DNA from: a virus
Strand: one strand, 5' to 3'
IMG/VR virus record: IMGVR_UViG_3300025598_000030
Span: 1 to 64,000 of that record
Length of the DNA: 64,000 bases
Part shown: piece after piece, positions 335 to 55,633 of the stretch
How the letters are laid out: each line of letters starts with the position of its first letter
Position numbering within the stretch: position 1 is the stretch's first letter
The notes under the pieces: generated by a model
What the model saw: the letters and a program-made list of their open reading frames with translations, nothing else
What the model was told of the DNA's origin: nothing
Databases searched by the model: none
Position numbers and translations under genes: made by a program

Positions 335-3037
335 ATGAGTTACGTTGATTCCATGTGGGATCGCGAAAATGACATTGTGCATGTCGTTGAACGTGATCCT
401 ATAAAAGGAAGAATATATCAGCAACACCCTGCAAGATATGTTTTTTACTATCCAGATAGTAGAGGAAAATATACCAGTATCTTTGGTACTCCTCTAAACC
501 GAGTAACATCTAAAAGTTGGAAAGAACATACAAAAGAGCAAAGGATTTATAGCGGTCACAAATTATTTGAAAGTGACATCAATCCTATCTTTCGTTGTTT
601 AGAAGAAAATTATCTCGGTAAAGAACCGCCAAAACTAAATGTAGCGTTCTTTGATATTGAAGTTGATTTTGATCCTGAAAGAGGATATGCAACGCCCGAC
701 GATGCATTTATGCCTATCACTGCGATTTCAGTTCATCTTCAATGGCTCGATACTTTAGTATGTTTGGCGATTCCTCCGAAAACATTGAAAATGGATCAAG
801 CGCAGGAATTAATTAAAGATTTTCCTAATACCATGTTATTTGAAACAGAATATGAGTTGCTTGATACATTTTTGCATCTTATTGAAGATGCAGATGTGTT
901 AACAGGGTGGAATTCAGAAGGATTCGATATTCCGTATACTGTTAATCGTGTTATTAAGACTTTGAGTAAAGAAGATACCAAACGATTCTGTCTTTGGAAC
1001 CAACTTCCGAAACGTAGAGAATATGAAAAATTCGGTAAAACATCTGTTACCTATGACATCGTAGGGCGCGTACATTTAGATAGTTTGGCATTATATAGAA
1101 AATATACATATGAAGAACGACATAGTTGGAAACTTGATTCAGTCGCTGAAGATGAGCTAGGCGAACGTAAAACTCAATACGAAGGCACACTTGATCAATT
1201 ATATAATAACGATTTTAAGACTTTCATTGAATATAATAGACAAGACTGTGCAATTTTAGAAAAACTCGATAAAAAATTGAAGTTTATCGACTTAGCTAAT
1301 ACAATTGCACATGAAAATACTGTATTGCTTCAAACTACTATGGGTGCAGTTGCTGTTACTGAACAAGCAATTATCAACGAAGCACATCATTTAGGATTAA
1401 TTGTTCCTAGTAGAGATAAAACTACTAAAGTAGAAGAACACACTTCAGATGATGAAGATGATATCGATGATAAAGCAGCAGGTGCATATGTAGCATATCC
1501 TAAAAAAGGGCTGCATGATTGGCTAGGATCTATGGACATTAATAGCCTGTATCCTTCAGTTATTCGTGCATTAAACATGGGTCCGGAAACAATTATCGGT
1601 CAACTTCGACAGGATTACACCAGAGAAGAAATCGAATCCAAAATGGCCAAGAATGGCGGAAAGTTCGCGTTGGCTTGGGAAGGTAAATTTGCTAGTAACG
1701 AGTTTGAATTAGTAATGTCTCGTGATAAAGCTAAAGAAATCACTATAGATTGGGAAGATGGCAAAAGTGATACGTTATCAGGTGCAGAAATCTATGAATT
1801 AATTTATGAAAATAATAATCCATGGATGCTAAGTGCTAATGGAACTATCTTTACATACGAAAAAGAAGGCATTATCCCTGGGTTATTAGCACGTTGGTAT
1901 AAAGAACGTAAAGAACTTCAGAAAAAACTCAAAGAAGCAATCGATGCCGGTAATAAGATTGAAGAAGAATACTGGGATAAAAGACAATTAGTTAAAAAGA
2001 TTAATCTAAATAGTCTCTATGGTGCAATTCTAAATGCAGGCTGTAGATTCTTTGATAACAGAATTGGTCAATCGACTACATTAACCGGTCGTCGTATTGC
2101 AAGACATATGGCTTCTAAGATTAATGAAATTATCACAGGCGAATATGATCATTTAGGTAAAGCAATTATCTATGGTGATACCGACTCTGCATATTTCAGT
2201 GCCTATACTACATTAAAGAATGAAATTAACAAAGGGCTCATATCCTGGGATAAGGATACAGTTATTCAATTGTACAACACAGTAGCGGAGGAAGTTAATG
2301 GTACATTCCCTCAATTCATGCTAAACGACTTTCATTGTCCTAAAAAACGAGGAGAAGTTATTAAAGCAGGTCGAGAGATTGTTGCTATTAAAGGGCTTTT
2401 TATTACTAAGAAGCGTTATGCTGTACTTTATTACGATAAAGACGGAAAACGACAAGATGTTAATGGAAAACCCGGTAAGATTAAGGCTATGGGATTGGAT
2501 CTTAAACGTAGTGATACTCCGGAATTTATGCAAGATTTTCTTAGTGAAATCCTAAATAAAGTATTAACCGGAGCTGGAGAGGAAGAGATTTTAGAAAGAA
2601 TTTTAGAATTCCGTACTGAATTTAAATCTCGACCAGGTTGGGAAAAAGGTAGCCCTAAGAGAGCTAATAAAATCACCGATTATCAAGCTAGAGAACAAAA
2701 AGATGGTAAAATTGATATGCCTGGGCATGTACGTGCAAGTATCAATTGGAATACTCTAAAGAGAGCACACAGTGATAAACATTCTATTAATATTGTTGAT
2801 GGAATGAAAGTAATTGTATGTAAACTTAAAGATAATCCGTTAGGATTTACTAGTGTAGCATATCCTACAGATGAACTAAGATTACCGAAATGGTTCCAAG
2901 AATTACCATTTGATCATGATGAAATGGAAATAGCGATTATTAATAAAAAATTGAAAAATCTTATCGGTGTTCTTGAATGGGATTTAGAATCTACCACAAG
3001 AAACAATACATTTAATGATTTGTTTACATTCGAATAA
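335..3037 (+). CDS. 43: DNA polymerase (T4 gp43, family B)
   Basis: Replicative family-B DNA polymerase, 900 residues (T4 gp43 is 898). The exonuclease motifs are complete: Exo I FFDIEVD (105-111; D107, E109), Exo II around GWNSEGFDIPY (D198) and Exo III YNRQDC (D304). The polymerase motifs are complete too: motif A MDINSLYPSVI (D401), motif B KKINLNSLYG (554-563) and motif C YGDTDS (D615, D617). The protein should therefore polymerise and proofread. It ends in a hydrophobic FTFE tail, a plausible clamp-binding tip. AAGGAG sits 7 bases before the ATG. The sliding clamp follows directly. No intein or intron interrupts it. Confidence 0.97.
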   Translation: MSYVDSMWDRENDIVHVVERDPIKGRIYQQHPARYVFYYPDSRGKYTSIFGTPLNRVTSKSWKEHTKEQRIYSGHKLFESDINPIFRCLEENYLGKEPPKLNVAFFDIEVDFDPERGYATPDDAFMPITAISVHLQWLDTLVCLAIPPKTLKMDQAQELIKDFPNTMLFETEYELLDTFLHLIEDADVLTGWNSEGFDIPYTVNRVIKTLSKEDTKRFCLWNQLPKRREYEKFGKTSVTYDIVGRVHLDSLALYRKYTYEERHSWKLDSVAEDELGERKTQYEGTLDQLYNNDFKTFIEYNRQDCAILEKLDKKLKFIDLANTIAHENTVLLQTTMGAVAVTEQAIINEAHHLGLIVPSRDKTTKVEEHTSDDEDDIDDKAAGAYVAYPKKGLHDWLGSMDINSLYPSVIRALNMGPETIIGQLRQDYTREEIESKMAKNGGKFALAWEGKFASNEFELVMSRDKAKEITIDWEDGKSDTLSGAEIYELIYENNNPWMLSANGTIFTYEKEGIIPGLLARWYKERKELQKKLKEAIDAGNKIEEEYWDKRQLVKKINLNSLYGAILNAGCRFFDNRIGQSTTLTGRRIARHMASKINEIITGEYDHLGKAIIYGDTDSAYFSAYTTLKNEINKGLISWDKDTVIQLYNTVAEEVNGTFPQFMLNDFHCPKKRGEVIKAGREIVAIKGLFITKKRYAVLYYDKDGKRQDVNGKPGKIKAMGLDLKRSDTPEFMQDFLSEILNKVLTGAGEEEILERILEFRTEFKSRPGWEKGSPKRANKITDYQAREQKDGKIDMPGHVRASINWNTLKRAHSDKHSINIVDGMKVIVCKLKDNPLGFTSVAYPTDELRLPKWFQELPFDHDEMEIAIINKKLKNLIGVLEWDLESTTRNNTFNDLFTFE

Positions 3038-3051
3038 AAATAGTATATACT
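3023..3051 (+). promoter_or_regulatory. Sigma70-type promoter for the clamp gene
   Basis: TTTACA (3023-3028), a 17-base spacer, then TATACT (3046-3051), overlapping the end of the polymerase gene and ending 21 bases before the clamp ATG. Near-consensus boxes at ideal spacing suggest early transcription of the clamp by host polymerase, independent of gene 43. Confidence 0.5.
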
Positions 3052-3072
3052 AATTCAAAAGGAAATATAAAA

Positions 3073-3807
3073 ATGCAAGAAATTTTAAAAGATATTGTGA
3101 GTCATACACACAATTTAGGCTTTCTAGATATTCTAAAAGTCACGGGTGATAAAAACTCAACTAAGATTGATTCTCTTTCAGCGGATCGGTCAGTAATCAT
3201 GTATTGCGAAACCGCTAAACCATATGAAGATATGATTGGGGTTTTTGGTATGCAGCAACTTAGCAAACTAAAATATTTGCTCGATGGCAGTGAATATAAA
3301 GATGATGCTAAGATTGAACTAGTCAAAGTTGATAGGAATGGAGAAAAAATACCATTTGGCATCCATTTTGAAAATAAATCAGGCGATTTTAAGAATGATT
3401 ATCGTTTTATGAACGCAGATATTGTTAATGAAAAGCTCAAGACCGTTAAATTCCGTGGGGCTAACTGGAATGTTGAGGTAACTCCTTCCTTACAAGCAAT
3501 TCAGCGCTTTCAGTTTCAAGCAGGCGCTAATAACGAGCATACTACATTCTTGGTTAAAGTAGAAAATAATAATTTGAAATTTATTTTCGGCGATCAGAGT
3601 TCACACGGTGGCGAATTTGTGTTTGCCTCTGATGTTACTGGTAAGCTATCTCATTCTCATACATGGCCAGTTCAGGCAATTTTAAGTATCTTAAAAATTG
3701 CAGATGTCAATACCTGTAAACTCAGCATTAGTGATGCCGGTGCTTTACAGATCACTATGGATAGTGGGTTAGCTACTTACAAATATATTATTCCAGCTAA
3801 GGCTTAA
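3073..3807 (+). CDS. 45: Sliding clamp (T4 gp45-like)
   Basis: A 244-residue protein right after the polymerase, the size and context of the trimeric T4 sliding clamp gp45 (228 residues), which tethers polymerase to DNA and also activates late transcription with gp55 and gp33. The sequence alternates beta strands and short helices, with an N-terminal 'ILKDIVSHTHNLGFLDILKV' segment and a C-terminal 'LATYKYIIPAKA' strand. No catalytic motif is expected. Identity is diverged from T4, so the call leans on size, position and general pattern. AAAGGA lies upstream. Confidence 0.8.
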   Translation: MQEILKDIVSHTHNLGFLDILKVTGDKNSTKIDSLSADRSVIMYCETAKPYEDMIGVFGMQQLSKLKYLLDGSEYKDDAKIELVKVDRNGEKIPFGIHFENKSGDFKNDYRFMNADIVNEKLKTVKFRGANWNVEVTPSLQAIQRFQFQAGANNEHTTFLVKVENNNLKFIFGDQSSHGGEFVFASDVTGKLSHSHTWPVQAILSILKIADVNTCKLSISDAGALQITMDSGLATYKYIIPAKA

Positions 3808-3878: not shown

Positions 3879-4559
3879 ATGTTTTATGTATATGCTTATT
3901 TGAGAACTAAAGATTTAACACCGTATTATATTGGTAAAGGAAAAGATGACAGAGCGTGGCAAAAGTCTCACTCTGTTATTGTTCCTAAAGACCTAAATAG
4001 GATTATTATATTAGAAACAAATTTAACAGAGCTTGGAGCATTTGCTATTGAGCGTAGAATGATCCGTTGGTATGGTCGAAAAGATATAGGTACAGGTATT
4101 TTACATAATAGGACAGACGGTGGTGATGGATCGGCAGGCATTATTCCATGGAACAAAGATATAAAAACTGGGTCGTATCTATCAGAAAAGGGGAGAAAGA
4201 CTATTTCCGAAGCAAATAAGAAACCAAGAAAAGATACGCACAAAGAAAGAATATCAGAAGCGTTAAAAGGTAAAACAAAATCAGAAGAGCATAGAAAAAA
4301 ATTAAGCGAAGCTGGTAAAGGTAAAACTCCTTGGAATAAAGGCAAGACAGGTGTTCAAAAAGGTTCGAGATTAGGAGTAGAAGTAAGTGCTGAAACCCGT
4401 GCTAAAATGAGTGCCGCACAAAAAGGTAAAGTAATGTCGGACTTGCAAAAAGAAAAAATAAGTGCTACACTTAAAGGTAGAAAAATGTCAGACGAAACTA
4501 AAAGAAAAATGTCAGAGGCAAGAAAAAAATTATGGGAACAAAAACGAAATGAAAAGTAG
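3879..4559 (+). CDS. GIY-YIG homing endonuclease with NUMOD3 repeats
   Basis: A 226-residue Seg/Mob-like homing endonuclease. The N-terminal nuclease domain (about 1-90) has the diverged GIY-YIG signature (FYVYAYLR ... [12 protein letters not shown]) and a later conserved E-R-x-x-I-x-W-Y-G helix. The C-terminal two thirds is a run of basic NUMOD3-type DNA-binding repeats of the 'S-x-E-T-K-x-K-M-S-E-A-x-K-G-K' kind (near 115, 130, 170, 185 and 205). It sits between the clamp and the DNA transglycosylase gene, under its own late motif, and its last 11 bases overlap the next start. This is the pattern of a free-standing selfish gene dropped between conserved genes. Confidence 0.88.
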
Positions 4560-6195
4560 ACCACCAGTAGATTTAAGTGTATTGAATAAGGATTATGCCT
4601 GCTATTTGCCAGCAATCAGCTCGTTCTATTCAACTTATGTTGCTAAACAACGTTTAGAAGAGTATGTTCCTAAAGATCGTATCCCTAAATCATTCGATCG
4701 TGGGATCGAAGGCATGAACTTTCTTAATCCGGAAGAAGGTTATTTTACCTACAAATACGGTCTTTATTCTGCAGGTCACGCACAATTAGATCTTAATAAG
4801 AGTCTTGTACAAGAATCTATGATTCAGCAACGAGATCGAGCTAATACTATGATCTTAGGTGACTCAGGTGGCTATCAAATCGGTAAAGGTGTACTTAAAT
4901 TTGATTGGTTAAACTTCGAAGGAGCTGCTGCTAATAAGACTAGGCAGCAGATCCTCGAATGGCTAGAGCTTACAGCCGACTGGTCAATGATGCTCGATGT
5001 ACCAACTTGGGCTTGTGATCACATTCATAGTCCCAAAACTGGGCTAAAAACTTTCGAAGATTGTCTCGATAAAACAAAATTTAACAATGAATATTTCTTA
5101 AAAAATCGTCTAGGCCAGACTAAATTCTTGAATGTATTGCAGGGAAGTGACTGGGATACTGCGGAAAAATGGTATAACGGTGTTAAGGAATTCAGTGACA
5201 ATAAAGTTTGGGGTGATAAAGCTGCAGAAGGGTGGGCATTCGGTGGTGCAAATATGTGTAAGATGGATATTACACTAAAGCGTTTAATGACTATGCGCGA
5301 AGAAGGAATGTTAACCGGCAAAGATTGGATACATTTCCTAGGAACTGCACAACTAGATTGGAGTGTATTCTTGACCAGTATACAACGTCAAATTAGAAAA
5401 CATATTAACCCTAATCTTACTATTAGTTTCGACTGTGCAAGTCCATTTATTGCAACTGCTCACGGGTTGGTATACACAACTGCGCAGCATAGCAAAAAGC
5501 GCTGGTCGATTCTCATGGATAAAGCACCAGATAATAAAGCACTTGCTAATAGCGATATTCCGTTTCCATTTGAAAGCGAGATCGGACGTAGATTGGAAAT
5601 GGGCGACATTTGTTATTATGATCTAGGCACTCCGAAAACTAATGCAGAATTAGGTGTAGATAAGCAAGGTAATCAAATCGAATTCAATCCTGCTAATCCA
5701 GATCATTATTCTACAATTCCTAAGATGAATAAGATCGGAAAAATCGGTAAGACTAGCTGGGATAGTTTCAGTTATGCACTAATGATGTCACATAATGTAT
5801 ACTGTCATATTGCTGCTGTACAAAAAGCTAATCAATTAGTTGATATCGAACGTGCTAGATTTAAGCCTGATTGGCGTCATTGGATTAAACTTAGTGCAAA
5901 GAATTCAGATGGAGACGAGTTTTCTGATTGGGTTCCACGTAATATTTTATATTTCGATCGTTTTGTCGAAGAGTTATTCGAAACTAAAAATAAAAAAGAA
6001 GCATTTGCTATGATTGAAAGAGCAATGCCTTTCTTAAAAGCGCTAGAAGGAGCTCGATTGCGTGGGGGTCCTGATCAAAATCATTTTAATGCATTATTTG
6101 ATCTAGAAGAAGTTACGGCTCAAAATGAAATTGATCTAGCTCACCCGGATGATCCTAAACTCCAAGCACTTTCGGAATTACTTGATAACGATTAA
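4549..6195 (+). CDS. dpdA: DpdA-like DNA-guanine transglycosylase (TGT superfamily)
   Basis: 548 residues from the ATG at 4549. A longer in-frame start at 4462 exists but would add 29 residues encoded inside the homing endonuclease gene. TGT-superfamily motifs are visible: GDSGGYQ (D105, the substrate-binding Asp of 'DSGGFQ'), MMLDVPTW (D150), NVLQGSD (the 'VQGG' position), WAFGGANM (the 'AIGGL' position) and SFDCASP (D295, the nucleophile of 'FDCV-PTR'). I see no CxCxxC zinc motif of tRNA-type TGT. With FolE, QueD-like and QueE downstream, the parsimonious role is DpdA: swapping guanine for a 7-deazaguanine in phage DNA to evade restriction. A tRNA-modifying role is the main alternative. Confidence 0.85.
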
Positions 6196-6216
6196 TACAA
6201 TTAATGGTGAAATAAT

Positions 6217-6753
6217 ATGAAAAGAGATTACATAACTGGCGTATCTGAAGATGTTATGTTCTTTGTAGGTACAGAGGTTGAAAAGACTCCGGCTTATGGA
6301 ATGAAAACATTGTTTGTAACGGGCTTGCAACCTATTGCAGAAATTGAGAAAATGCTCGATGACCCATTCTTGACCATTGGAAGTTCCGTTACACATATTT
6401 TCTTTGGAGCTAATCATAGTTTTAATCCTAAAGAATATAAAGAATGGGCCGCTTGGGAAAATATGATCACACATTTCCTTGAGAAGGATTATTGGTGTAG
6501 TTTAGATATTCCTATGTCTGCTGTTGAAGAATTTAATGATGGTGTATTAAACGACTATGCTAATTTTATTCCTCAAATTATGATTCCGATTCCTTATATT
6601 AAATTATGGAATTACAATACTATGATTAAAATTGATGATAAAGATTTTAAGGCGACTAATCCCGGAGTTTGGACACATAGCCTGCATGATCTCAAAGATC
6701 GAAACAAATTCACAGATTGGTCACAATATAAAAACGATACGGTGTTAAAATGA
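6217..6753 (+). CDS. Conserved DpdA-neighbour protein of unknown function
   Basis: 178 residues, soluble, with no motif I can name. Distinct segments are 'GTEVEKTPAYGMKTLFVTG' (17-35), 'THIFFGANHSF' (about 59-69), a Trp-rich helix and a highly ordered tail 'KIDDKDFKATNPGVWTHSLH'. From memory, similar proteins accompany queuosine-like clusters in cyanomyoviruses; I cannot verify this here. It follows dpdA by 21 bases and overlaps the HNH gene by ATGA, so it is co-translated with the modification operon. A role in making or tailoring the 7-deazaguanine base is an inference from context only. Confidence 0.6.
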   Translation: MKRDYITGVSEDVMFFVGTEVEKTPAYGMKTLFVTGLQPIAEIEKMLDDPFLTIGSSVTHIFFGANHSFNPKEYKEWAAWENMITHFLEKDYWCSLDIPMSAVEEFNDGVLNDYANFIPQIMIPIPYIKLWNYNTMIKIDDKDFKATNPGVWTHSLHDLKDRNKFTDWSQYKNDTVLK

Positions 6754-7166
6754 ATTCATTAATTAATCAATGGGCTCCGGAATGTGCTGTTACTGGTTGC
6801 ACTAATCGGGTTGGATATCATAAATCTTGGGATCGACCCGATGGAACTCCGGCAGCAAAATGGAAAGTATTCTGTGAGCATCACCGAGGCAAAGGAAAAA
6901 AAGAAGCAGATATCTGGAAATTAGAGCAAGGGTGCGCTAATAAAAATAAGAAACATTATAATTTCGAATGTTTCACAACAAAAATTGTCATTCCGGATCA
7001 ATTAGATGTTAATCATATCGATGGTGATAAAAGAAATGGATCGGTTGAAAATTTAGAAATTTTATGTAAAAATTGTCATGTTATTGTGACAAAGTTAAAA
7101 GATCACCATAAAAATAGATATGTTAATGCTGTAAATTTAAACCCTAAACTATTCGAGGTTGTATGA
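6750..7166 (+). CDS. Small HNH endonuclease embedded in the modification operon
   Basis: 138 residues. The HNH core is DVNHIDGDKRNGSVENLEIL (about 91-110) followed by C-K-N-C-H, giving the His-Asn-His pattern plus a zinc knuckle. An N-terminal C-x4-C with a later CEHH may bind a second zinc. Unlike typical homing genes, it is joined to both neighbours by 4-base ATGA overlaps and has no separate promoter, so it is translated as an operon member. It could still be a domesticated homing endonuclease. Confidence 0.8.
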   Translation: MNSLINQWAPECAVTGCTNRVGYHKSWDRPDGTPAAKWKVFCEHHRGKGKKEADIWKLEQGCANKNKKHYNFECFTTKIVIPDQLDVNHIDGDKRNGSVENLEILCKNCHVIVTKLKDHHKNRYVNAVNLNPKLFEVV

Positions 7167-7534
7167 CTACACAAGATATGATGATTTGGTGTTCCTTCCA
7201 AAAAGAAGGAATACATTGTTATCCAGCAGCAGCTACCGATCCTATGCTAGCAGATGTTAGTTTTCTAGGATTTCCACACCGGCATATTTTCCATTTTAAG
7301 GTATGGATCGAAGTATTCGATGACGATCGAGAAATTGAATTTATCCAATTTAAACGTTGGTTGCAGGACTTGTATAAAGATAGTATACTAAGTCTAGATC
7401 ATAAGAGTTGTGAAATGATTGCTAAGGATTTACATGAAGTAATTCACAACAAATATGGCGCCAGAAATATCTGGATTGAGGTAAGTGAAGACAACGAAAA
7501 TGGTTGCTTCATTAAGTTTAACAATAGATGGTGA
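7163..7534 (+). CDS. QueD/PTPS-like (T-fold) protein lacking the catalytic cysteine
   Basis: 123 residues, close to bacterial QueD (about 120). A hand alignment to E. coli QueD places the zinc histidines at H18 (in E-x-x-H), H39 and H41 (HRH for HGH), followed by the 'FHFKVWIEV' strand. Next come EFIQFKRWL (for 'DFAELK'), LDH (D79, H80) and IEVSE (E109, for 'VKET'). The cysteine four residues before the HGH motif, catalytic in 6-carboxytetrahydropterin synthase, is a leucine here. The loop after LDH is about ten residues shorter. It lies between dpdA and folE/queE, matching the QueD step (dihydroneopterin triphosphate to 6-carboxytetrahydropterin). It may be a divergent QueD or a repurposed pterin/deazapurine enzyme. 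Confidence 0.62.
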   Translation: MTTQDMMIWCSFQKEGIHCYPAAATDPMLADVSFLGFPHRHIFHFKVWIEVFDDDREIEFIQFKRWLQDLYKDSILSLDHKSCEMIAKDLHEVIHNKYGARNIWIEVSEDNENGCFIKFNNRW

Positions 7535-7546
7535 GGATTTTTTTAA

Positions 7547-7756
7547 ATGGCTAATTATAAGACTCGTTCGATGAAACCCGAAGTTGTTCGTATTTACGAG
7601 GACCTCGAAGCTTGGTTGGATCACTGCAGGTTCAATCTGCTGCGGTTTGATCCGGCGGACCTTTATAAGTCGAAGGAATGGCGAGACTTTTCTGCAAAGA
7701 TGAATGGCGACCGGCGAGGTTATCGGCGAGAGCGCAGTCACAGGAATAAGGAATGA
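7547..7756 (+). CDS. Small conserved-type phage protein, unknown function
   Basis: 69 residues, basic, with a central 'EDLEAWLDHCRFNLLRFDPAD' helix pair, 'YKSKEWRDF' and an Arg-rich tail. GAGGA lies upstream, and the last bases (ATGA) overlap the glycosyltransferase start. Base composition is richer in G+C than the neighbouring genes. I do not recognise a family. Confidence 0.6.
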   Translation: MANYKTRSMKPEVVRIYEDLEAWLDHCRFNLLRFDPADLYKSKEWRDFSAKMNGDRRGYRRERSHRNKE

Positions 7757-8847
7757 CTGTTTATGTAATAGACTTAGAAAGTGTTCCAACTAGATATACC
7801 TGCGAATGGAAGACCAGTGTACCTACACTATTACGCAATCACGGACTTGATGTAAACGTAATCTCAGGCCCTTCAGATATTCCTAATGCTACTACGCCTG
7901 GTGCATTTCTTAACTTTGGTGGTACAAATGTATACAAATCTAGTCAAGTTGAACAAATTTCTCGTTTATTTTGCTCAGGAACAGTTCATGCTGGGGATCA
8001 TTTTCTTTTTACGGATGCTTGGCATCCTGGTATCATAAATCTCAAATATATGAGCGAATTGTTGCAGATTCCTGTGACAATTCACGCATTATGGCATGCA
8101 GGTAGCTATGATCCTGAAGATTTCTTAGGTAGATTGATCGGTGATAAACCATGGGTTAGACATGCTGAAAAAAGCATGTATTGGGCAATAGATCATAATT
8201 ATTTTGCAACAGATTTTCATATAAAAATGTTTTTTGATAATCTCCTGCATAATGGATCCACATCTACAAATCCTTGGTATCACGATGACTGGTTGGAACG
8301 ATTCGATGGGGATAAAATTGTACGTAGTGGTTGGCCGATGGAATATATGGAAGATACACTAACTGTGTATAAGAATATGCCCAAGCGTGACTTAATTCTT
8401 TTTCCGCATCGTATTGCTCCGGAAAAACAAGTAGAAATTTTTAGAGATCTTAAAGAACATTTACCGCAATATGAATTTGTAGTCTGCCAAGATCAGCAGT
8501 TAACTAAAAATGAATATCATAACTTGTTAGGCGAAGCAAAGCTAGTATTCAGTGCGAATCTACAAGAAACATTAGGTATTAGTTGCTATGAAGGCGCGTT
8601 AGTTGATGCAATACCGATGGTTCCTGATCGTCTAAGCTATTCAGAAATGTATTTTGAAACATTTAAATATCCTAGCGAATGGACTGAGAATTTCACTGCA
8701 TATGAAAATCATCGTGAAGAATTGTGTAATAAAATTGTTAATCATATGGAATTTTATGAAACTCGATTACCAACTTTGAAAAAACAAACAGAAATCTTAA
8801 CTAAAGATTTTTTTAGTGCAAATGAAATTTTAAAAAGATTAATTTGA
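7753..8847 (+). CDS. GT-B-type glycosyltransferase
   Basis: 364 residues. The C-terminal half carries the GT4-like donor-site pattern: 'LILFPHRIAPEKQ' (first strand of the second Rossmann domain), 'YEFVVCQDQQ', then 'FSANLQETLGISCYEGALVDAIPMVPD', in which E-T-x-G-I-S-x-x-E-G corresponds to the E-x7-E nucleotide-sugar region. The N-terminal half is the acceptor domain, with W/H-rich stretches. The target is not evident: modified DNA bases, host surface glycans or virion proteins are all possible. It is translationally coupled to the deazaguanine cluster, and the folE promoter starts within its stop codon. Confidence 0.72.
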   Translation: MTVYVIDLESVPTRYTCEWKTSVPTLLRNHGLDVNVISGPSDIPNATTPGAFLNFGGTNVYKSSQVEQISRLFCSGTVHAGDHFLFTDAWHPGIINLKYMSELLQIPVTIHALWHAGSYDPEDFLGRLIGDKPWVRHAEKSMYWAIDHNYFATDFHIKMFFDNLLHNGSTSTNPWYHDDWLERFDGDKIVRSGWPMEYMEDTLTVYKNMPKRDLILFPHRIAPEKQVEIFRDLKEHLPQYEFVVCQDQQLTKNEYHNLLGEAKLVFSANLQETLGISCYEGALVDAIPMVPDRLSYSEMYFETFKYPSEWTENFTAYENHREELCNKIVNHMEFYETRLPTLKKQTEILTKDFFSANEILKRLI

Positions 8848-8872
8848 CACCACCTAAATAATATTGTATTAT
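8844..8872 (+). promoter_or_regulatory. Consensus sigma70 promoter for folE
   Basis: TTGACA (8844-8849), 17-base spacer, TATTAT (8867-8872), overlapping the stop codon of the glycosyltransferase and 44 bases before the folE ATG. This should give early, host-polymerase transcription of folE, the phosphoribosyltransferase, HIT and queE. Confidence 0.65.
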
Positions 8873-8916
8873 AAATCATAACGTCATCCACGACGAAAAC
8901 TCGGAGAATAATTATA

Positions 8917-9609
8917 ATGAACGATGTAGGCAAAAATATAAGCGAAGTAATTCGCGATCGAATTCAACGATCAGGTGAACGATTTCACAGCAATGATAAC
9001 ATTTCAAAATTTATCTATAACGACAAAGAACTAGAACTTCTAGTTGATGAAGTTACTAATAAATTTCAAGGTGTTTTAGAAAGTTTGATCATTGATACTA
9101 AACATGATCACAACACAAATGATACTGCACGACGTGTGGCTAAAATGTTTGTTAAAGAAACATTTAGTGGTAGGTATCGACCAGTCCCTAAGGTTACAGC
9201 ATTTCCGAATATGGGTTACAAGAGCCTGTATACTACAGGACCTATTAGCATTCGTAGTACTTGTGCACATCATTTTCAGAATATTGTCGGTAAGTGTTGG
9301 GTAGGCATTGTGCCAGAAGATGAAGTGATCGGACTTAGTAAGTTTAATCGTCTTGTTCATCATATCTGTGAAAGACCGCAAATTCAAGAAGAAATGACTA
9401 CGCAGATTGCTGAAGCACTTAAGGAATATGCTAAGACTGAACATATTGCTGTTGTAGTTAAAGCAGAACACTTCTGTATGACGCAAAGAGGAGTGCGAGA
9501 ACACGAAAGCGATATGACTACAGCAATTATGCTAGGTGCTTTTAACCGTGATCCTGCATTAAAGAAAGAATTTTATGACATTTGTCTAAGCATGAAAGGA
9601 CACGGATAA
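8917..9609 (+). CDS. folE: GTP cyclohydrolase I (FolE)
   Basis: 230 residues. It converts GTP to dihydroneopterin triphosphate, the first step of both folate and 7-deazaguanine synthesis. Family signatures are complete: NDTARRVAKMF (substrate region), TCAHHF with zinc ligands C116 and H119, GLSKFNRLVHHICERPQIQEEMT (139-161) and HFCMTQRGV with the third ligand C187. It has its own consensus early promoter and a GGAG ribosome binding site. The stop overlaps the next ATG (TAATG). In this context it most likely feeds QueD/QueE for DNA modification, though the nearby DHFR and thymidylate synthase also use folates. Confidence 0.95.
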   Translation: MNDVGKNISEVIRDRIQRSGERFHSNDNISKFIYNDKELELLVDEVTNKFQGVLESLIIDTKHDHNTNDTARRVAKMFVKETFSGRYRPVPKVTAFPNMGYKSLYTTGPISIRSTCAHHFQNIVGKCWVGIVPEDEVIGLSKFNRLVHHICERPQIQEEMTTQIAEALKEYAKTEHIAVVVKAEHFCMTQRGVREHESDMTTAIMLGAFNRDPALKKEFYDICLSMKGHG

Positions 9610-10166
9610 TGAATAAACTAATTATCGATTATCAAGAATATAAATTTTTAGTTTCAAAAATCTGTCGTGATATTACTTTATCAGGTTGGAAACCCGACTA
9701 TATTGTAGGAATCACTCGTGGCGGATTGCTTCCTGCAGTAATGATTAGTCATTATTTTAATGTTCCGTGCCAAACTCTTAAAGTTAGCCTTCGAGATAGC
9801 GGCAACAATGATACAGAATCTAACTGTTGGATGGCCGACAATGCAATTGGGTATAAATTGAGAGACAACAATGATAAAACTTCAGGATTTAGTGATCCTG
9901 AAAGTAGAAAAAATATTCTTATTGTTGACGATATCAATGATACTGGTGCTACATTTAATTGGATATTAAAAGACTGGCCTTTGAGCTGTTTAAGAGATGA
10001 TCCTGCATGGAATGATGTTTGGAACGGCAACGTGAAGTTTGCAGTTCTTGTTGATAATCTTTCAAGTATTTCCCAAGTTAAAATGGACTATCAAGGTATT
10101 GAGATTAATAAAGCAAACAACGATCTTTGGGTAGAGTTTCCTTGGGAAAATTGGTGGTTAAAATGA
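9609..10166 (+). CDS. Purine-type phosphoribosyltransferase
   Basis: 185 residues from the ATG at 9609 (overlapping the folE stop); an upstream in-frame ATG at 9582 inside folE is less likely. Type I PRTase features: 'YIVGITRGGLLPAVMIS' (31-47), the R-G-G loop after the first strand, and the PRPP loop ILIVDDINDTGATF (103-116; D107, D108). It resembles Gpt/xanthine-guanine type enzymes that couple a base to PRPP. Its place between folE and queE suggests handling of guanine or a deazaguanine base; the substrate cannot be read from the sequence. It overlaps the HIT gene by ATGA. Confidence 0.85.
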   Translation: MNKLIIDYQEYKFLVSKICRDITLSGWKPDYIVGITRGGLLPAVMISHYFNVPCQTLKVSLRDSGNNDTESNCWMADNAIGYKLRDNNDKTSGFSDPESRKNILIVDDINDTGATFNWILKDWPLSCLRDDPAWNDVWNGNVKFAVLVDNLSSISQVKMDYQGIEINKANNDLWVEFPWENWWLK

Positions 10167-10570
10167 ATGATCATATTTTTCCTAGGTCTTCGAATGATAA
10201 TATTTTTGCCGGACCTTTTTCTATTAAAGATGCAAATGTTCCATGGACCAATGTATTACAGGAAGATTTTTACGTTGTAGTATACCGAGACAAATATCCA
10301 GTAACCGAAGGACACTTGCTTTTCGTACCTAAATATAATACACTAGTTGCATTAGGATTCGCATTTGATCAGGCTATTCGTTATGGAAAGTTTATGGTTT
10401 CGCAAGAAACATGCGCCGCATTTAACATCGGATTAAATGCTGGTGAAGCAGCAGGTCAAACTATCATGTGGCCACATATACACCTTATTCCTCGCAGAGT
10501 AGGTGATGTTGATGATCCTGTAGGTGGTGTACGTAACACTATCCCGGGTAAAGGAAATTATAAAAAATGA
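10163..10570 (+). CDS. HIT-family protein with altered histidine triad
   Basis: 135 residues from the ATG at 10163. The HIT fold is clear: 'VVVYRDKYPVTEGHLLFVPK', 'FNIGLNAGEAAGQT', and the active-site strand followed by 'RRVGDVDDPVGGVR', typical of nucleotide hydrolases and transferases. The triad H-x-H-x-H-x-x reads W-P-H-I-H-L-I here: the first histidine is tryptophan, while the middle (nucleophile) and third histidines remain. It could act on nucleotide adducts released during base exchange, or be a nucleotide hydrolase of changed specificity. Translation is coupled on both sides (ATGA). Confidence 0.85.
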   Translation: MNDHIFPRSSNDNIFAGPFSIKDANVPWTNVLQEDFYVVVYRDKYPVTEGHLLFVPKYNTLVALGFAFDQAIRYGKFMVSQETCAAFNIGLNAGEAAGQTIMWPHIHLIPRRVGDVDDPVGGVRNTIPGKGNYKK

Positions 10571-11403
10571 GCAAAATTAAAATAGCAGAATTATTTTACA
10601 GCATTCAAGGAGAAGGAAGGTACATGGGAGTACCTTCTATCTTCTTACGTACATTTGGATGCAATTTTCAATGTTCGGGCTTTGGAATGCCTAAGGGTGA
10701 ACGCAGTACAGAAGCTGTTAACATAGATCCTAGTAAATATAAGTCTTATGGCGAGTTGCCATTGGTTAGTACAGGCTGCGACAGTTATGCTAGCTGGGAT
10801 ACAAGATTCAAAAACCTTAGTCCTATGCTGACTACAGACAGCATTGCAGAACAAATTGTTAGCTTGTTGCCACATGGCGAATGGCGAGATGAGCATTTGG
10901 TTATTACCGGTGGTGAACCACTTTTGGGTTGGCAACGTGCTTATCCAGATTTGTTAGAACATCCTAAAATGGAAGATTTAACAGAAATTACTTTTGAAAC
11001 AAATGGTACACAGCAATTATCTCCAGAGTTCGCTGATTATCTAAATATGTGGAACAAAGTGGGTCGAGAGATTACATTTAGTGTTAGTGCAAAATTAAGT
11101 TGTAGTGGTGAATCCAGAGAGGATGCAATTAAACCTAGCACTGTTTGTGAATACGAAAAAGTAGGATTTACCTATCTTAAGTTTGTTGTTGCAACCGAAG
11201 AGGATGCACAAGAAGCCATTGATACTGTAAAAGTATACCGAGAAACTGGCTTCGAAGGACCAGTTTACCTTATGCCTGTAGGCGGAGTAGAAAGTGTATA
11301 CTCGCTAAATAATCGCCGTGTTGCCGATCTTGCAATGCAAAATGGGTTAAGATACAGTGATAGACTCCAAGTTCCACTCTTTGGTAACGCATGGTCGACG
11401 TGA
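10567..11403 (+). CDS. queE: 7-carboxy-7-deazaguanine synthase (QueE), radical SAM
   Basis: 278 residues. QueE converts 6-carboxytetrahydropterin to 7-carboxy-7-deazaguanine (CDG). The opening 'IAELFYSIQGEGRYMGVPSIFLR' is the QueE hallmark, followed by GCNFQC, GCDSY, 'LVITGGEPLL' (the SAM GGEP motif), 'ITFETNGT', 'FSVSAKLS' and 'YLKFVV'. The cluster cysteines appear as C32-x3-C36-x34-C71: about 32 residues are inserted between the second cysteine and the C-D-S/T end of the usual C-x3-C-x2-C. This is a different insertion point from the C-x14-C-x2-C form known in some bacterial QueE. The last gene of the folE unit. Confidence 0.93.
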   Translation: MSKIKIAELFYSIQGEGRYMGVPSIFLRTFGCNFQCSGFGMPKGERSTEAVNIDPSKYKSYGELPLVSTGCDSYASWDTRFKNLSPMLTTDSIAEQIVSLLPHGEWRDEHLVITGGEPLLGWQRAYPDLLEHPKMEDLTEITFETNGTQQLSPEFADYLNMWNKVGREITFSVSAKLSCSGESREDAIKPSTVCEYEKVGFTYLKFVVATEEDAQEAIDTVKVYRETGFEGPVYLMPVGGVESVYSLNNRRVADLAMQNGLRYSDRLQVPLFGNAWST

Positions 11404-12220: not shown

Positions 12221-12699
12221 TGAATAAAATTATTAAACGAGTGTTAGGTATCGATAAACTAGAAGCTGCTACCTTAGAAGCAACTAGACTTGCAGCCGAA
12301 GCAGAAACAAAAGCTCAAGAATTGATTGCTAGGGCAGAAGCAGCTAAAATTGCAGCCAATGCAGCAGAAAATGATAGAAAAGAACAGCAAAGATTAGCTA
12401 AACTAACTCCAAAAGAAATTGCTACAGAAAAGAAAGAACCATATTTTGAAGTAGTAGGATTTCATACTACTCCAGAAAATCCACGTTTTGGCTTTTGGGA
12501 ACTTGACTGGAACGAGTATAAGGTAGTAGAATTAAAAGCGTTAGGATATTATGGTGAAACTGACGAAGAAGTCATCGATCAATGGTTTACTGAGATTTGT
12601 AGAGAATCCGGTACAGCAGTTGGGGCGAGCATGGATCGACGATCTATGGGATTCATCGATGTTAAACAAATTGGCGGTGGCCGCTCGGAGATAAGTTAA
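12220..12699 (+). CDS. Conserved T4-like phage protein with N-terminal coiled coil
   Basis: 159 residues from the ATG overlapping the previous stop (TAATG). Residues about 10-65 are an Ala/Glu/Lys-rich coiled coil. The C-terminal half is ordered: 'FEVVGFHTTPENPRFGFWELDW', then 'YKVVELKALGYYGETDEEVIDQWF'. Similar sequences occur, as I recall, in cyanomyoviruses without known function. TAATG coupling to the exonuclease gene downstream suggests a link to replication, but this is inference. Confidence 0.7.
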   Translation: MNKIIKRVLGIDKLEAATLEATRLAAEAETKAQELIARAEAAKIAANAAENDRKEQQRLAKLTPKEIATEKKEPYFEVVGFHTTPENPRFGFWELDWNEYKVVELKALGYYGETDEEVIDQWFTEICRESGTAVGASMDRRSMGFIDVKQIGGGRSEIS

Positions 12700-13697
12700 T
12701 GACATATATTTTGGTAGATACTGCAAATGTTTTTTTCCGGGCCAGGCATGTTGCTCGAGGAAACCTTGAAGAGAAAGTAGGATTAAGCCTACATACTATG
12801 TTTACTAGTATTAGAAAAGCATGGAGAGATTTTAATGGATCTCATGTAATCTTTTGTCTCGAAGGTAGGTCTTGGCGTAAAGATGTTTATCCTCCATACA
12901 AGAGACAAAGATCCGAAGCTCGTGCAGCTTTATCTCCAAGCGAAGCTGAAGAAGAAAAATTATTCTGGGAAACACTTGACGAATTCGAAAATTTCGTAAT
13001 TGAAAAAACTAATTGTACGGTGTTACATAATTCACAATTAGAGGCAGACGATCTCATTGCCGGATGGATACAAGCTCATCCCGATGATCAACATGTAATT
13101 ATTTCAACTGATGGCGATTTTGCACAGTTAATTTCTCCTAATGTTCGTCAATATAATGGTGTTACTGGTGTAACTATTACACATGAAGGTTATTTTGACG
13201 AATTAGGCAAGCGCGTTGTCGATAAAAAAACACAACAAGAAAAACCGGCACCAGACCCAGAATGGTTATTGTTTGAAAAGTGTATGCGAGGCGATACATC
13301 AGATAATATTTTCAGTGCATATCCGGGTGTTCGAACTAAAGGGTCGAAGAATAAAGTTGGCCTAATTGATGCATACGCTGACAGACAATCTAAAGGATAT
13401 AATTGGAATAATATCATGTTACAGCGATGGGTAGATCATGACGGAATCGAACATCGAGTTATCGACGATTATTCTCGAAATGTAACTTTGTGTGATTTGA
13501 CTGCACAACCCGATCATATTAAAATGATAATTAAAGAAACCATTGATGTAGCAAAAACTGCTGAAAAAAATGTCGGACAAGTAGGAGTTCGATTTCTTAA
13601 ATTTTGCGGAAAATATGATCTAGTAAAGATTACTGAAAATGCCGATAGTTACGTTTACCCACTTAATGCGAGGTATATAAATGAATGCCACAACTAA
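12699..13697 (+). CDS. rnh: 5'-3' exonuclease / RNase H (T4 Rnh-like, FEN family)
   Basis: 332 residues. FEN-superfamily nuclease that removes RNA primers and flaps on the lagging strand. The metal-binding acidic residues are in place: 'ILVDTANVFFRAR' (D7), 'VIFCLEGRSWRKDVYPPYKRQR' (helical arch region, with Glu in place of the usual Asp), 'LEADDLIAGW' (E-A-D-D), 'ISTDGDFAQLI' (S-T-D-x-D) and 'MRGDTSDNI' (G-D-x-S-D-N). The helix-hairpin-helix region follows. It overlaps the previous gene by one base and the next by 17. Confidence 0.9.
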   Translation: MTYILVDTANVFFRARHVARGNLEEKVGLSLHTMFTSIRKAWRDFNGSHVIFCLEGRSWRKDVYPPYKRQRSEARAALSPSEAEEEKLFWETLDEFENFVIEKTNCTVLHNSQLEADDLIAGWIQAHPDDQHVIISTDGDFAQLISPNVRQYNGVTGVTITHEGYFDELGKRVVDKKTQQEKPAPDPEWLLFEKCMRGDTSDNIFSAYPGVRTKGSKNKVGLIDAYADRQSKGYNWNNIMLQRWVDHDGIEHRVIDDYSRNVTLCDLTAQPDHIKMIIKETIDVAKTAEKNVGQVGVRFLKFCGKYDLVKITENADSYVYPLNARYINECHN

Positions 13698-18686: not shown

Positions 18687-19171
18687 TAATTGGGTTAGTA
18701 GCAGTAGAAAAAGGTCATGGCATTGGATTCCAAGGTCAAATGCCATGGCCGAAATTAGAAAATGATTTATCATGGTTTAAAGAAAAAACACTTAATCAAA
18801 TTGTCATAATGGGTTCGACAACTTGGAAAAGTATCGGCAAATTTTTACCTGATAGAATAAATGTAGTAATTAGTTCTAAGTTACATACAGCAGCAAACTT
18901 TACTTTTACAGATCCTGTATCCGCTATTGAAGAATTAAAAGAAAGATTTCACAATAAAGATATATGTATTATTGGCGGCCAAAAAATATACGATAGTGTT
19001 AAAAATCTAGTGGAATGTTGGTACATTACCGAAATCGATTCTTCATATGTATGTGATACTTTTTTTGATTTAAAATTTGTACAAGACAATTACAAAGAAA
19101 TAACAGAATTAGATAAATTTGACAAAACGATTAATACCCCGGCTTATATAATTAAAGAATATAAAAAATGA
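18683..19171 (+). CDS. frd: Dihydrofolate reductase
   Basis: 162 residues, the normal DHFR length. Visible family features: 'IGLVAVEKGHGIGFQGQMPWP' (Met20-loop region and P-W), 'DLSWFKEKT' (catalytic acidic residue and Phe), 'VIMGSTTWKSIGKFLPDRINVVIS' (NADPH-binding M-G-x-x-T-W-x-S-I) and 'ICIIGGQKIYDSV' (I-G-G-x-x-I-Y). It regenerates tetrahydrofolate consumed by the thymidylate synthase gene that it overlaps by ATGA, as in T4 frd-td. Confidence 0.93.
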   Translation: MIIGLVAVEKGHGIGFQGQMPWPKLENDLSWFKEKTLNQIVIMGSTTWKSIGKFLPDRINVVISSKLHTAANFTFTDPVSAIEELKERFHNKDICIIGGQKIYDSVKNLVECWYITEIDSSYVCDTFFDLKFVQDNYKEITELDKFDKTINTPAYIIKEYKK

Positions 19172-20040
19172 AACAATATTTAGACTTACTTAAAGATGTT
19201 CTCGAAAATGGAGAAACTCGCCCAGATCGCACAGGAGTAGGTACTTTAAGCAAATTCGGAGCACAATTGAGATTTAATCTATCCGAAGGGTTTCCGGCGG
19301 TAACAACAAAGAAATTAGCATGGCGAGCTGTAGTTAGCGAACTACTTTGGTTCATAGAAGGAAGCGGAGACGAATTTCGACTTCGTGAAATACTTCATGG
19401 AAATAGATATTCTAACGAAAAAACTATTTGGACTGATAATGCTAATGCACCATATTGGGTTGGTAAAAATCTAAAAAGACATGCCGGAGATCTTGGTAGA
19501 GTCTATGGTGTACAGTGGCGTCGTTGGCGCAAGCCATTGGTGAGGATCAATAAAGTTGTTCTTCAAAATCATGATCAATTATTAGATCTTATTAACGGCA
19601 TCAAAGATGATCCATATAGTCGTAGACATATTATTACTGCATGGAATCCCGGTGAATTGGAGCTCATGGCATTACCTCCCTGTCATACTATGAGTCAATT
19701 CTATGTTAATAATGGAAAATTAAGTTGTCATATGTATCAACGATCAGCAGATTTATTTTTAGGAGTTCCTTTTAATATTGCTAGCTATGCGTTGTTTACA
19801 CATATGATTGCACAAGTTTGTAAATTAGAAGTAGGCGATTTAATTATATCATTCGGCGATGCTCATATCTATGAAAATCATATCGAACAAGTAAAGGAAC
19901 AATTAAAGAGAACCCCTCTACCTTTGCCGAAATTAGAACTTAATCCGGAAATCGATGTTATTACTGATTTTGATATGAACGATATTTCTTTAATCGATTA
20001 CCAATGTCATTCCACAATCAAAGCACCAATGTCTGTTTAA
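19168..20040 (+). CDS. td: Thymidylate synthase (ThyA type)
   Basis: 290 residues. It methylates dUMP to dTMP with methylenetetrahydrofolate. Signatures: 'RPDRTGVGTLSKFG', 'LLWFIEGS', 'GRVYGVQWRRWR', 'DPYSRRHIITAWNPGELELMALPPCHT' (catalytic C172), 'LSCHMYQRSADLFLGVPFNIASYA' and 'GDAHIYENH'. It is complete and uninterrupted (T4 td carries a group I intron). It ends convergently with the tail-fibre gene on the other strand, sharing TTAA at 20037-20040. ThyA rather than ThyX separates this phage from many cyanophages, which carry ThyX. Confidence 0.96.
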   Translation: MKQYLDLLKDVLENGETRPDRTGVGTLSKFGAQLRFNLSEGFPAVTTKKLAWRAVVSELLWFIEGSGDEFRLREILHGNRYSNEKTIWTDNANAPYWVGKNLKRHAGDLGRVYGVQWRRWRKPLVRINKVVLQNHDQLLDLINGIKDDPYSRRHIITAWNPGELELMALPPCHTMSQFYVNNGKLSCHMYQRSADLFLGVPFNIASYALFTHMIAQVCKLEVGDLIISFGDAHIYENHIEQVKEQLKRTPLPLPKLELNPEIDVITDFDMNDISLIDYQCHSTIKAPMSV

Positions 20041-54679: not shown

Positions 54680-55633
54680 ATGAAAGTACTATTTCACACC
54701 CATACTCCTTGTTATTTAGGAACGACCGTTTCTGTAATGAACTATGCAAGATATAATCAAGAAGTATTAGGTAATGAGAGCATTATTTGCTATAATCATG
54801 ATTTTAAGGGAGAAATGATCAATGGTAACCTTGATAAAGATGTGCTAAAAAAATGGACTGATATATGTGAAGTTAGAAGCACCACTGATGGAAACTATAA
54901 TGATGTCTGTAAAGATGTCGATGTTGCATATTTTCAAAGAAGTGGCGAGCCAGAACCATTACCGAATACTGCTAGAACTGCTATTCATGCTGTTTTTCAA
55001 CTTAACACCCCACATGGTGATCGATATGCATATATTTCGGAATGGTTATCTAAAAAAGTAACCGGCGGTGTTGCACCTTGGGTTCCATATATAGTGCAGA
55101 TGCCGAAGCCTAATCAAGATATGAGAGAATTTTTCGGTATTCCTAAAGATAAAATCATTATCGGTAGATTAGGAAGTTGGAATATTTTTGTCGACGGAAT
55201 GGAATGGGCATGTCAAGCTATTGTTAATATTGTAAACAAACGGAATGATATTGTTTTCCTATTAGTCAATACTAAAAAGTTTTACGAACATCCTAATATC
55301 ATTTATGTAAATGGGATTGCAGATGAACAAATAAAATCTAATTTTATAAACACATGTGATGCAATGATACACTCTAGATGGCAAGGAGAAAGTTTCGGAA
55401 TGGCTATCTGCGAATTTCTATTTCATAATAAGCCAGTACTATCATGGAACGGAGGAGTCGATCAGCATCATATCGATCTTCTAAAAGATACCGGATTATT
55501 GTATAATAGCACCGCTGATTTAGAGAATAAATTAGATAATATTAAATCGTTTAATGGCGATTATCATAAAATTGTCGAAAAATTTAATCCTAATAATGTA
55601 ATGCAGCAGTTTAAATCAGTATTTTTAGATTGA
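54680..55633 (+). CDS. Glycosyltransferase, GT4-like
   Basis: 317 residues. The N-terminal Rossmann half begins 'MKVLFHTHTPCYLGTTVSVMNYAR'. The C-terminal donor half has 'IIIGRLGSWNIFVDGMEWACQA' and 'AMIHSRWQGESFGMAICEFLFHNKPVLSWNGG', i.e. the E-S-F-G-x-x-x-x-E of GT4 enzymes. Substrate unknown. It resembles the 7753-8847 gene in fold class only. It ends TGATG, overlapping the GIY-YIG gene start. Confidence 0.8.
   Translation: MKVLFHTHTPCYLGTTVSVMNYARYNQEVLGNESIICYNHDFKGEMINGNLDKDVLKKWTDICEVRSTTDGNYNDVCKDVDVAYFQRSGEPEPLPNTARTAIHAVFQLNTPHGDRYAYISEWLSKKVTGGVAPWVPYIVQMPKPNQDMREFFGIPKDKIIIGRLGSWNIFVDGMEWACQAIVNIVNKRNDIVFLLVNTKKFYEHPNIIYVNGIADEQIKSNFINTCDAMIHSRWQGESFGMAICEFLFHNKPVLSWNGGVDQHHIDLLKDTGLLYNSTADLENKLDNIKSFNGDYHKIVEKFNPNNVMQQFKSVFLD

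Follow-up and report, generated by a model that had tools for sequence, protein, structure and literature searches.

The closest described relatives of the gene cluster that we analyze here are the phage systems for 7-deazaguanine DNA modification that use DpdA or DpdA2 (Hutinet et al. 2019, PMC6884629). Our cluster lies within bases 1-64000 of the 84,180-base IMG/VR virus record IMGVR_UViG_3300025598_000030; we refer to this stretch of 64,000 bases as the window. The cluster shares with those systems the transglycosylase fold, FolE, QueE, a location next to genes for a DNA polymerase and a sliding clamp, and, in the genomes of its long relatives, a canonical QueD (PMC6884629). It differs from them in that we saw no QueC and no amidotransferase (PMC6884629), in that its transglycosylase belongs to a subfamily distinct from the 9g and nt-1 types, and in that it has additional genes for a QueD paralogue and a glycosyltransferase. 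The transglycosylase, the QueD paralogue, and the glycosyltransferase appear to form one module, as judged from their sequences and co-occurrence. We know of no previous description of the glycosyltransferase as a partner in such a system.

Other known systems resemble parts of this one. The tubercidin genes TubC, TubA, TubB, TubD, and TubE correspond to FolE, QueD, QueE, a GMP reductase, and a transferase that acts on 7-carboxy-7-deazaguanine (CDG) and phosphoribosyl pyrophosphate (PRPP) (PMC6112128). The grouping of FolE, QueD, QueE, a phosphoribosyltransferase, and a GMP reductase is shared with the phages, but tubercidin is a secreted nucleoside, and its cluster has a UbiD decarboxylase and no transglycosylase (PMC6112128). 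In animal tRNA, mannosyl- and galactosyl-queuosine carry their sugar on the cyclopentene diol (PMC12518689). There too, a sugar sits on a 7-deazaguanine nucleoside that was placed in nucleic acid by a tRNA-guanine transglycosylase (TGT), but the nucleic acid is tRNA instead of DNA, and genes for the cyclopentene diol were not seen in our analysis of this phage. The glucosyl-hydroxymethylcytosine of T4-type phages is likewise a base that is decorated by a glycosyltransferase and that shields phage DNA, but the base is cytosine, it is made at the nucleotide level, and it offers the sugar a different handle. To our knowledge, the known 7-deazaguanine modifications of phages are small groups at C7. 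Cui and colleagues reportedly found, in 2023, the deoxy forms of 7-deazaguanine and CDG (dDG and dCDG) in phage DNA and predicted a CDG decarboxylase, DpdL. Those phages would have the QueC-less logic in common with ours; the glycosyltransferase partner is, as far as we know, a difference.

We propose, with somewhat more confidence than doubt, that the cluster is a QueC-less operon for 7-deazaguanine DNA modification in which the QueD paralogue is a decarboxylase, the base is glycosylated, and guanine is recycled. FolE, a canonical QueD (encoded elsewhere in the phage genome or by the host), and QueE would make CDG. QueC would not be used; instead, the QueD paralogue, which lacks the catalytic cysteine, would act on CDG, most likely by decarboxylating it to 7-deazaguanine. 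The transglycosylase would exchange guanine in phage DNA for 7-deazaguanine, and the glycosyltransferase would then put a sugar on the modified base or on a form of it. The phosphoribosyltransferase (PRTase), along with a GMP reductase in some relatives, would recycle the guanine that is freed by the exchange. The genes for the proposed synthesis, insertion, and glycosylation of the base are:

4549..6195, plus strand: transglycosylase with the TGT/DpdA fold, 548 amino acids, ATG start (motifs, profile alignment, AlphaFold (AF2) model)
7163..7534, plus strand: QueD paralogue with the T-fold, 123 amino acids, probable QueC substitute (hhalign, residues, co-occurrence)
7753..8847, plus strand: GT-B/GT4-type glycosyltransferase, 364 amino acids (residues, Pfam matches in family members)
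8917..9609, plus strand: FolE, GTP cyclohydrolase I (Pfam, 2.4e-46)
10567..11403, plus strand: QueE, 7-carboxy-7-deazaguanine synthase (PHROG 2076, 5e-53)

A divergent DpdA-like transglycosylase

An initial annotation of this DNA, made from the sequence alone, described the 548-amino-acid protein as a DpdA-like transglycosylase. Its membership in the TGT/DpdA family is supported by both its structure and profile alignments. Searches of Pfam, PHROG, and NCBIfam gave no match for this protein, and a hidden Markov model search of the PDB with the transglycosylase profile came back empty. The Pfam model for TGT (PF01702) misses every one of the phage transglycosylases, annotated ones included, so the lack of a match to it tells us nothing. 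The protein does have the catalytic aspartate motifs of the TGT-type fold (DSGGxQ, QG, and FD), as D105SGGYQ, D150, LQG199, GG233, and FD295. Across 19 relatives, D105SGG.Q, D150, Q198/G199, G233, and D295 are conserved, with Q198 nearly invariant. When aligned by hhalign to five DpdA2-type proteins (from nt-1, Moby, ACP17, X1, and BUCT-ZZ01), the motifs are in register (E = 6.7e-6, probability 85%), while alignment to the single TGT of E. coli gave E = 2e-3 with low probability.

The AlphaFold model of the transglycosylase (pLDDT 75.9) has a sole match in the PDB with E below 0.001, which is the DNA preQ0 insertase DpdA (7ui4, E = 5.1e-5); the second match is mouse QTRT1/2 (E = 5.4e-3). In the BFVD library of viral structures, the model matches DpdA2 from Vibrio phage nt-1 (R9TGF0, 4.7e-9). 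By these comparisons the protein is closer to the DNA enzymes than to tRNA TGT. The TM-scores are modest (0.3-0.5), so we take the fold match as evidence at the level of the family. The C-x-C-x2-C zinc motif is absent, by inspection. Clustering with tRNA-specific TGTs, which the initial annotation had named as the outcome that would overturn its proposal, was thus not what we found: the closest solved fold is DpdA and the motif is missing.

Proteins of the same type, all annotated as hypothetical, occur in PA5oct-group phages (45% identity), Phosso (32%), and Vibrio 2.275.O (31%). A sequence profile search reaches only these types and not the enzymes of 9g, nt-1, HVTV-1, or CJLB-14. So, sequence profiles do not place the protein in either DpdA (9g) or DpdA2 (nt-1), and the link to DpdA2 is by profile-profile alignment alone. 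From the motifs and the model, we identify it as a divergent DpdA-like transglycosylase of the PA5oct-group type. We infer that DNA is its substrate, and we think it very likely that 7-deazaguanine is inserted into the DNA of this phage.

A QueD paralogue that probably acts in place of QueC

The short QueD-like gene was originally taken to be the QueD of the pathway, but this is probably a misreading. The 123-amino-acid protein aligns with phage QueD over its C-terminal half (hhalign E = 2e-6, probability 89%). H18, H39, and H41 are invariant in the paralogue, so it has the three histidines of QueD, whose role in binding zinc we assign by homology. At the position of QueD's catalytic cysteine it has LxxPHRH, and this stretch contains no conserved cysteine in 25 sequences. 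The Pfam model for QueD (PF01242) matches neither the window's record nor the paralogue family, and it detects a canonical QueD in all 18 of the other records, among them the six long relatives from IMG/VR; only the window's record lacks one. We also examined 77 loci of at least 15 kb, from other lineages, that were independently fetched with three other QueD-paralogue queries (all counts for this set are among the matches listed). In 38 of these loci, a canonical QueD and the paralogue are neighbors. The short protein is thus a cysteine-less paralogue, a second enzyme that is distinct from QueD.

As the initial annotation noted, no QueC is visible: PF06508 (QueC) has no match in the 84-kb record. 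This model is also silent in G001 (230 kb), G002 (353 kb), G005, G006, PA5oct, Phosso, BUCT-ZZ01, ACP17, phiST, RHph_I1_18, Ahp1, and Bakedbeans. It gives strong matches in nt-1 and Vibrio 2.275.O and it detects QueC in Moby. Matches in G003 and X1 are weak and sub-threshold, and a match in G004 is above the cut-off and covers only part of the profile. We rejected the QueC-like matches in G003, X1, and L202/L211/L231 because they are below the cut-off or have E near 5e-5, and because the superfamily includes other N-type ATP pyrophosphatases. The long relatives, at 106-353 kb, also have no complete QueC, so truncation of the contig does not by itself explain why QueC is missing.

The paralogue is present in 16 of 23 records. 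It is absent from nt-1, Vibrio 2.275.O, Moby, 9g, HVTV-1, CJLB-14, and one 61-kb fragment, and QueC is annotated in 9g and HVTV-1. Relying on annotation for those two phages, the paralogue and a full-length QueC never occur together in the records that we searched. This pattern is most simply explained if the paralogue, instead of QueC, performs the next step on CDG. It probably acts at the step that is usually performed by QueC, perhaps as a decarboxylase, and we think it highly likely that the route is QueC-independent. The initial annotation had left open whether the base stops at CDG, is decarboxylated, or relies on a QueC from the host or from outside the window. Host QueC is unlikely given the pattern of QueC loss and the dedicated paralogue, while decarboxylation to 7-deazaguanine is the best fit. 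It is our leading candidate because dDG and a predicted DpdL have reportedly been described, and the paralogue may be DpdL or a relative of it. Based on its residues and co-occurrence, we would put decarboxylation of CDG at about an even proposition.

In L012, L049, L062, and similar loci, a BUCT-type paralogue (about 41% identical to the window's) replaces the clade's version in place, which suggests gene exchange with the function kept. In Vibrio phage Bakedbeans (L094:15212-16363), the paralogue forms the C-terminal part of a 383-amino-acid protein, and Pfam gives no match for the N-terminal part.

A glycosyltransferase in the same module

The initial annotation suggested that the extra genes could be tailoring enzymes. 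The glycosyltransferase is a candidate for this role; the HNH gene, which is discussed below, is not. In the 364-amino-acid protein, R220, K225, E272, and E280 (E-x7-E) are invariant within the window's clade. The window protein itself has only weak Pfam matches that fall below the cut-offs, and seven members of its family match Glycos_transf_1 (best 8e-12). With the Pfam match taken from these family members, the features of GT4 are all present (a GT-B Pfam match, E-x7-E, and R/K phosphate-binding residues). We therefore identify the protein, which the initial annotation had called a glycosyltransferase, as a GT4-type enzyme whose catalytic residues are all in place.

IMG/VR contains 467 relatives, and in about 80 loci the genes follow the same order, so the arrangement is far beyond chance. 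Among the 37 complete clusters of the window's clade, the transglycosylase, the conserved protein u178, the QueD paralogue, the glycosyltransferase, and QueE are each present in all 37. The module is also present in cultured phages: the PA5oct group, Acidovorax ACP17, Xanthomonas X1, Synechococcus BUCT-ZZ01, and Sinorhizobium Phosso. In the 77-locus set, the glycosyltransferase was found in 71 loci, the transglycosylase in 67, and both in 66, with a median distance of 0.9 kb from paralogue to glycosyltransferase. After collapsing the paralogues at 90% or 70% identity, the glycosyltransferase was found in 53/58 or 12/14. (The Vibrio 2.275.O row of alignment A3 was wrong, as it is probably an amidoligase; we ignored its match and removed the row for the 77-locus analysis.) The glycosyltransferase occurs with two types of transglycosylase, the window/PA5oct type and the DpdA2 type (ACP17, X1, and BUCT-ZZ01). 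In Synechococcus phage BUCT-ZZ01 (L005:16778-20935), two glycosyltransferase-like genes flank the DpdA2-type transglycosylase and the QueD paralogue. Within the clade, 9 of the 37 clusters have a gene for a UDP-glucose/GDP-mannose dehydrogenase immediately after the glycosyltransferase. Because of the co-occurrence, the two transglycosylase types, the second glycosyltransferase, and the neighboring dehydrogenase, we consider the glycosyltransferase to belong to the pathway. Glycosylation of the modified base or a derivative of it is about as plausible to us as not, given this genomic association and the residues.

In Campylobacter phage CJLB-14 (L126:13041-13811), QueE is immediately followed by a UDP-sugar dehydrogenase-like gene that is related (29%) to the one behind the glycosyltransferase in those 9 clusters of the window's clade; this is a further link between sugar-nucleotide genes and 7-deazaguanine genes. 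We did not count a match to the glycosyltransferase in Xanthomonas phage PhiXhv-15 because of its aminosugar context: this distant relative (L134:4669-7903) is beside genes for a GlmS-like aminotransferase and an N-acetylglucosaminyl-malate deacetylase-like protein, which looks like a separate aminosugar pathway. The window also contains a second glycosyltransferase-like open reading frame (ORF) of 317 amino acids at 54680-55633, distant from the operon.

Other genes of the run

The cluster is a tightly packed run on the plus strand, as originally described, with overlaps or short gaps between all of its ORFs and 4-base ATGA overlaps at several junctions. The ORFs of the initial annotation all exist, at roughly the coordinates given there; it counted five further genes, but its own list has six. 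The other features are:

3879..4559, plus strand: GIY-YIG-like endonuclease, overlaps the start of the transglycosylase (family by sequence inspection only)
6217..6753, plus strand: u178, conserved protein (37/37 complete clusters of the clade)
6750..7166, plus strand: HNH endonuclease, probably a homing-type insertion (Pfam HNH_3, 1.2e-5)
7547..7756, plus strand: small conserved protein, 69 amino acids (BLAST matches in 65 relatives)
9609..10166, plus strand: purine-type PRTase, 185 amino acids (Pfam, 1.9e-13)
10163..10570, plus strand: HIT-family protein, accessory (Pfam, 7e-8; 6/37 clusters)

The family calls for FolE, QueE, PRTase, HIT, and HNH all held up. The better start of the PRTase is ATG 9609, rather than TTG 9582 of the longest ORF, and that of the HIT protein is ATG 10163, rather than TTG 10127; both overlap the preceding stop codon. 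On one side of the run are genes for a B-family DNA polymerase and a sliding clamp (335-3807, as judged by inspection and context), and on the other is a gene for a 5'-3' exonuclease (12699-13697, Pfam 5e-19). No phage matched the first 12 kb in a megablast search, and no pathway genes were found in 64001-84000 (the rest of the record). The structural gene region includes a single minus-strand ORF of 4432 amino acids (26203-39501).

By sequence, the identities of FolE and QueE are confirmed. Alignment with phage QueE shows about 35 residues inserted between the second and third cluster cysteines of the window's QueE, and QueE from nt-1 has the same layout. The DNA of nt-1 contains dPreQ0, dADG, and dG+ at low levels (PMC6884629), so the insertion is no argument against function. 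In L064:17244-18122 and L030:18957-19820, QueE is replaced by a compact type with uninterrupted cysteines, similar to QueE from ACP17 and Phosso.

A transglycosylase frees one guanine for each base that it inserts. The PRTase has a conserved PRPP loop (VDDINDTG), its solved relatives are purine PRTases/HGPRT, and the GMP reductase in some relatives' clusters is 65% identical to GuaC from E. coli. The PRTase, joined in relatives by the GMP reductase, may salvage the evicted guanine, or it may act like TubE. FolE is found in 15 of the 37 complete clusters, PRTase in 14, HIT in 6, and GMP reductase in 2; in the 77-locus set, PRTase is in 42 and GMP reductase in 9. Some clusters have genes that are not in the window's run: a MazG-like protein (24/37) and, between the glycosyltransferase and QueE, a cupin-like protein of about 153 amino acids with no Pfam match (30/37; for example L026:15811-16272).

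The AlphaFold model of u178 (pLDDT 79.5) gave no usable match in a fold search of the PDB (best TM about 0.35). In most relatives, the gene for the 69-amino-acid protein separates the QueD paralogue from the glycosyltransferase. HNH and GIY-YIG-like genes are each sporadic, in about 6 loci of the fetched relatives. We rejected HNH as a tailoring enzyme, and both are best read as mobile insertions that are outside the pathway.

Weaknesses and alternative explanations

Several points weigh against our proposal. At C7, 7-deazaguanine lacks a hydroxyl or amine to which a sugar could be O- or N-linked, which makes decarboxylation and glycosylation awkward to combine. The two are compatible only if the sugar is C-linked or sits on another atom, or if the paralogue performs a different chemistry; in the last case, an ordinary handle for the sugar could exist. 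Because of this tension, we do not lean either way on decarboxylation or on glycosylation, and the case for both consists of residues and co-occurrence. Glycosylation is not obligatory, as the glycosyltransferase is missing from 6 of the 77 loci and from phiST, RHph_I1_18, Ahp1, and Bakedbeans. The PRTase is in just 14 of 37 clusters. Finally, the sets of loci were picked through related queries, so the counts are descriptive.

It is also conceivable, although we doubt it, that plain 7-deazaguanine or CDG is the final base in the DNA and that the glycosyltransferase has some other role, such as acting on another base or on a component of the host or virion. Several phages with the QueD paralogue but no glycosyltransferase would fit this, as would the reported dDG and dCDG and the predicted DpdL. 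However, the pairing of glycosyltransferase and paralogue in 71 of 77 loci, a few kb apart, in unrelated phages and with two transglycosylase types, argues against this. As for another base, the window has no sign of a hydroxymethyl-pyrimidine, since its thymidylate synthase-like gene (19168-20040) looks on inspection like an ordinary dUMP enzyme. Alternatively, the phage might build 7-deazapurine nucleotides, instead of or beside base exchange, with a TubE-like PRTase (CDG + PRPP) and a TubD-like GMP reductase. The same five Tub functions do occur in several phage clusters (such as L176, L183, and L185), but we consider this improbable: the PRTase and GMP reductase are much rarer than the near-universal transglycosylase in the window's clade and are patchy in the wider set as well, the similarity of the GMP reductase to GuaC fits plain salvage, and there is no UbiD decarboxylase among the proteins that were annotated in this analysis.

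The two remaining alternatives retain more of the standard pathways. An ordinary preQ0 pathway with QueC and QueD from the host would be unsurprising in that bacterial hosts often encode QueC (PF06508 matched 14/14 control genomes). We judge it very unlikely, because about nine unrelated phage lineages have a dedicated QueD paralogue where QueC is missing, and because the QueC-less phages retain their own canonical QueD. That the transglycosylase acts on tRNA, so that the operon only boosts queuosine-type tRNA modification, seems extremely unlikely. Its family does include tRNA TGTs, and mouse QTRT is its second match in the PDB, but the best fold match is a DNA enzyme, the closest profile is DpdA2, the zinc motif is missing, a DNA polymerase and clamp adjoin the genes, and no gene of the QueC or QueF type was seen in the run.

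Implications

At its core, our proposed system resembles ones that have already been described. The complete module is a variation on them that we regard as new, and the base that it finally makes may belong to a new class in DNA. We tentatively suggest, as something that could well prove wrong, that there is a widespread group of phages with glycosylated 7-deazaguanine DNA, made without QueC by a repurposed QueD, a divergent transglycosylase, a GT4 enzyme, and guanine salvage, possibly as a C-glycoside at C7. The altered base may be coated with sugar to hide phage DNA from bacterial defenses. If so, the sugar-bearing purine analogue would shield the DNA by a chemistry unlike that of the known 7-deazaguanine modifications, and it would affect restriction, cutting by CRISPR systems, type IV enzymes, and DNA sequencing. 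Since the module is present in cultured phages, nucleoside mass spectrometry is feasible now. Besides correcting a likely misreading of the short QueD-like protein, our analysis points to an enzyme function that would replace QueC in hundreds of viral contigs.

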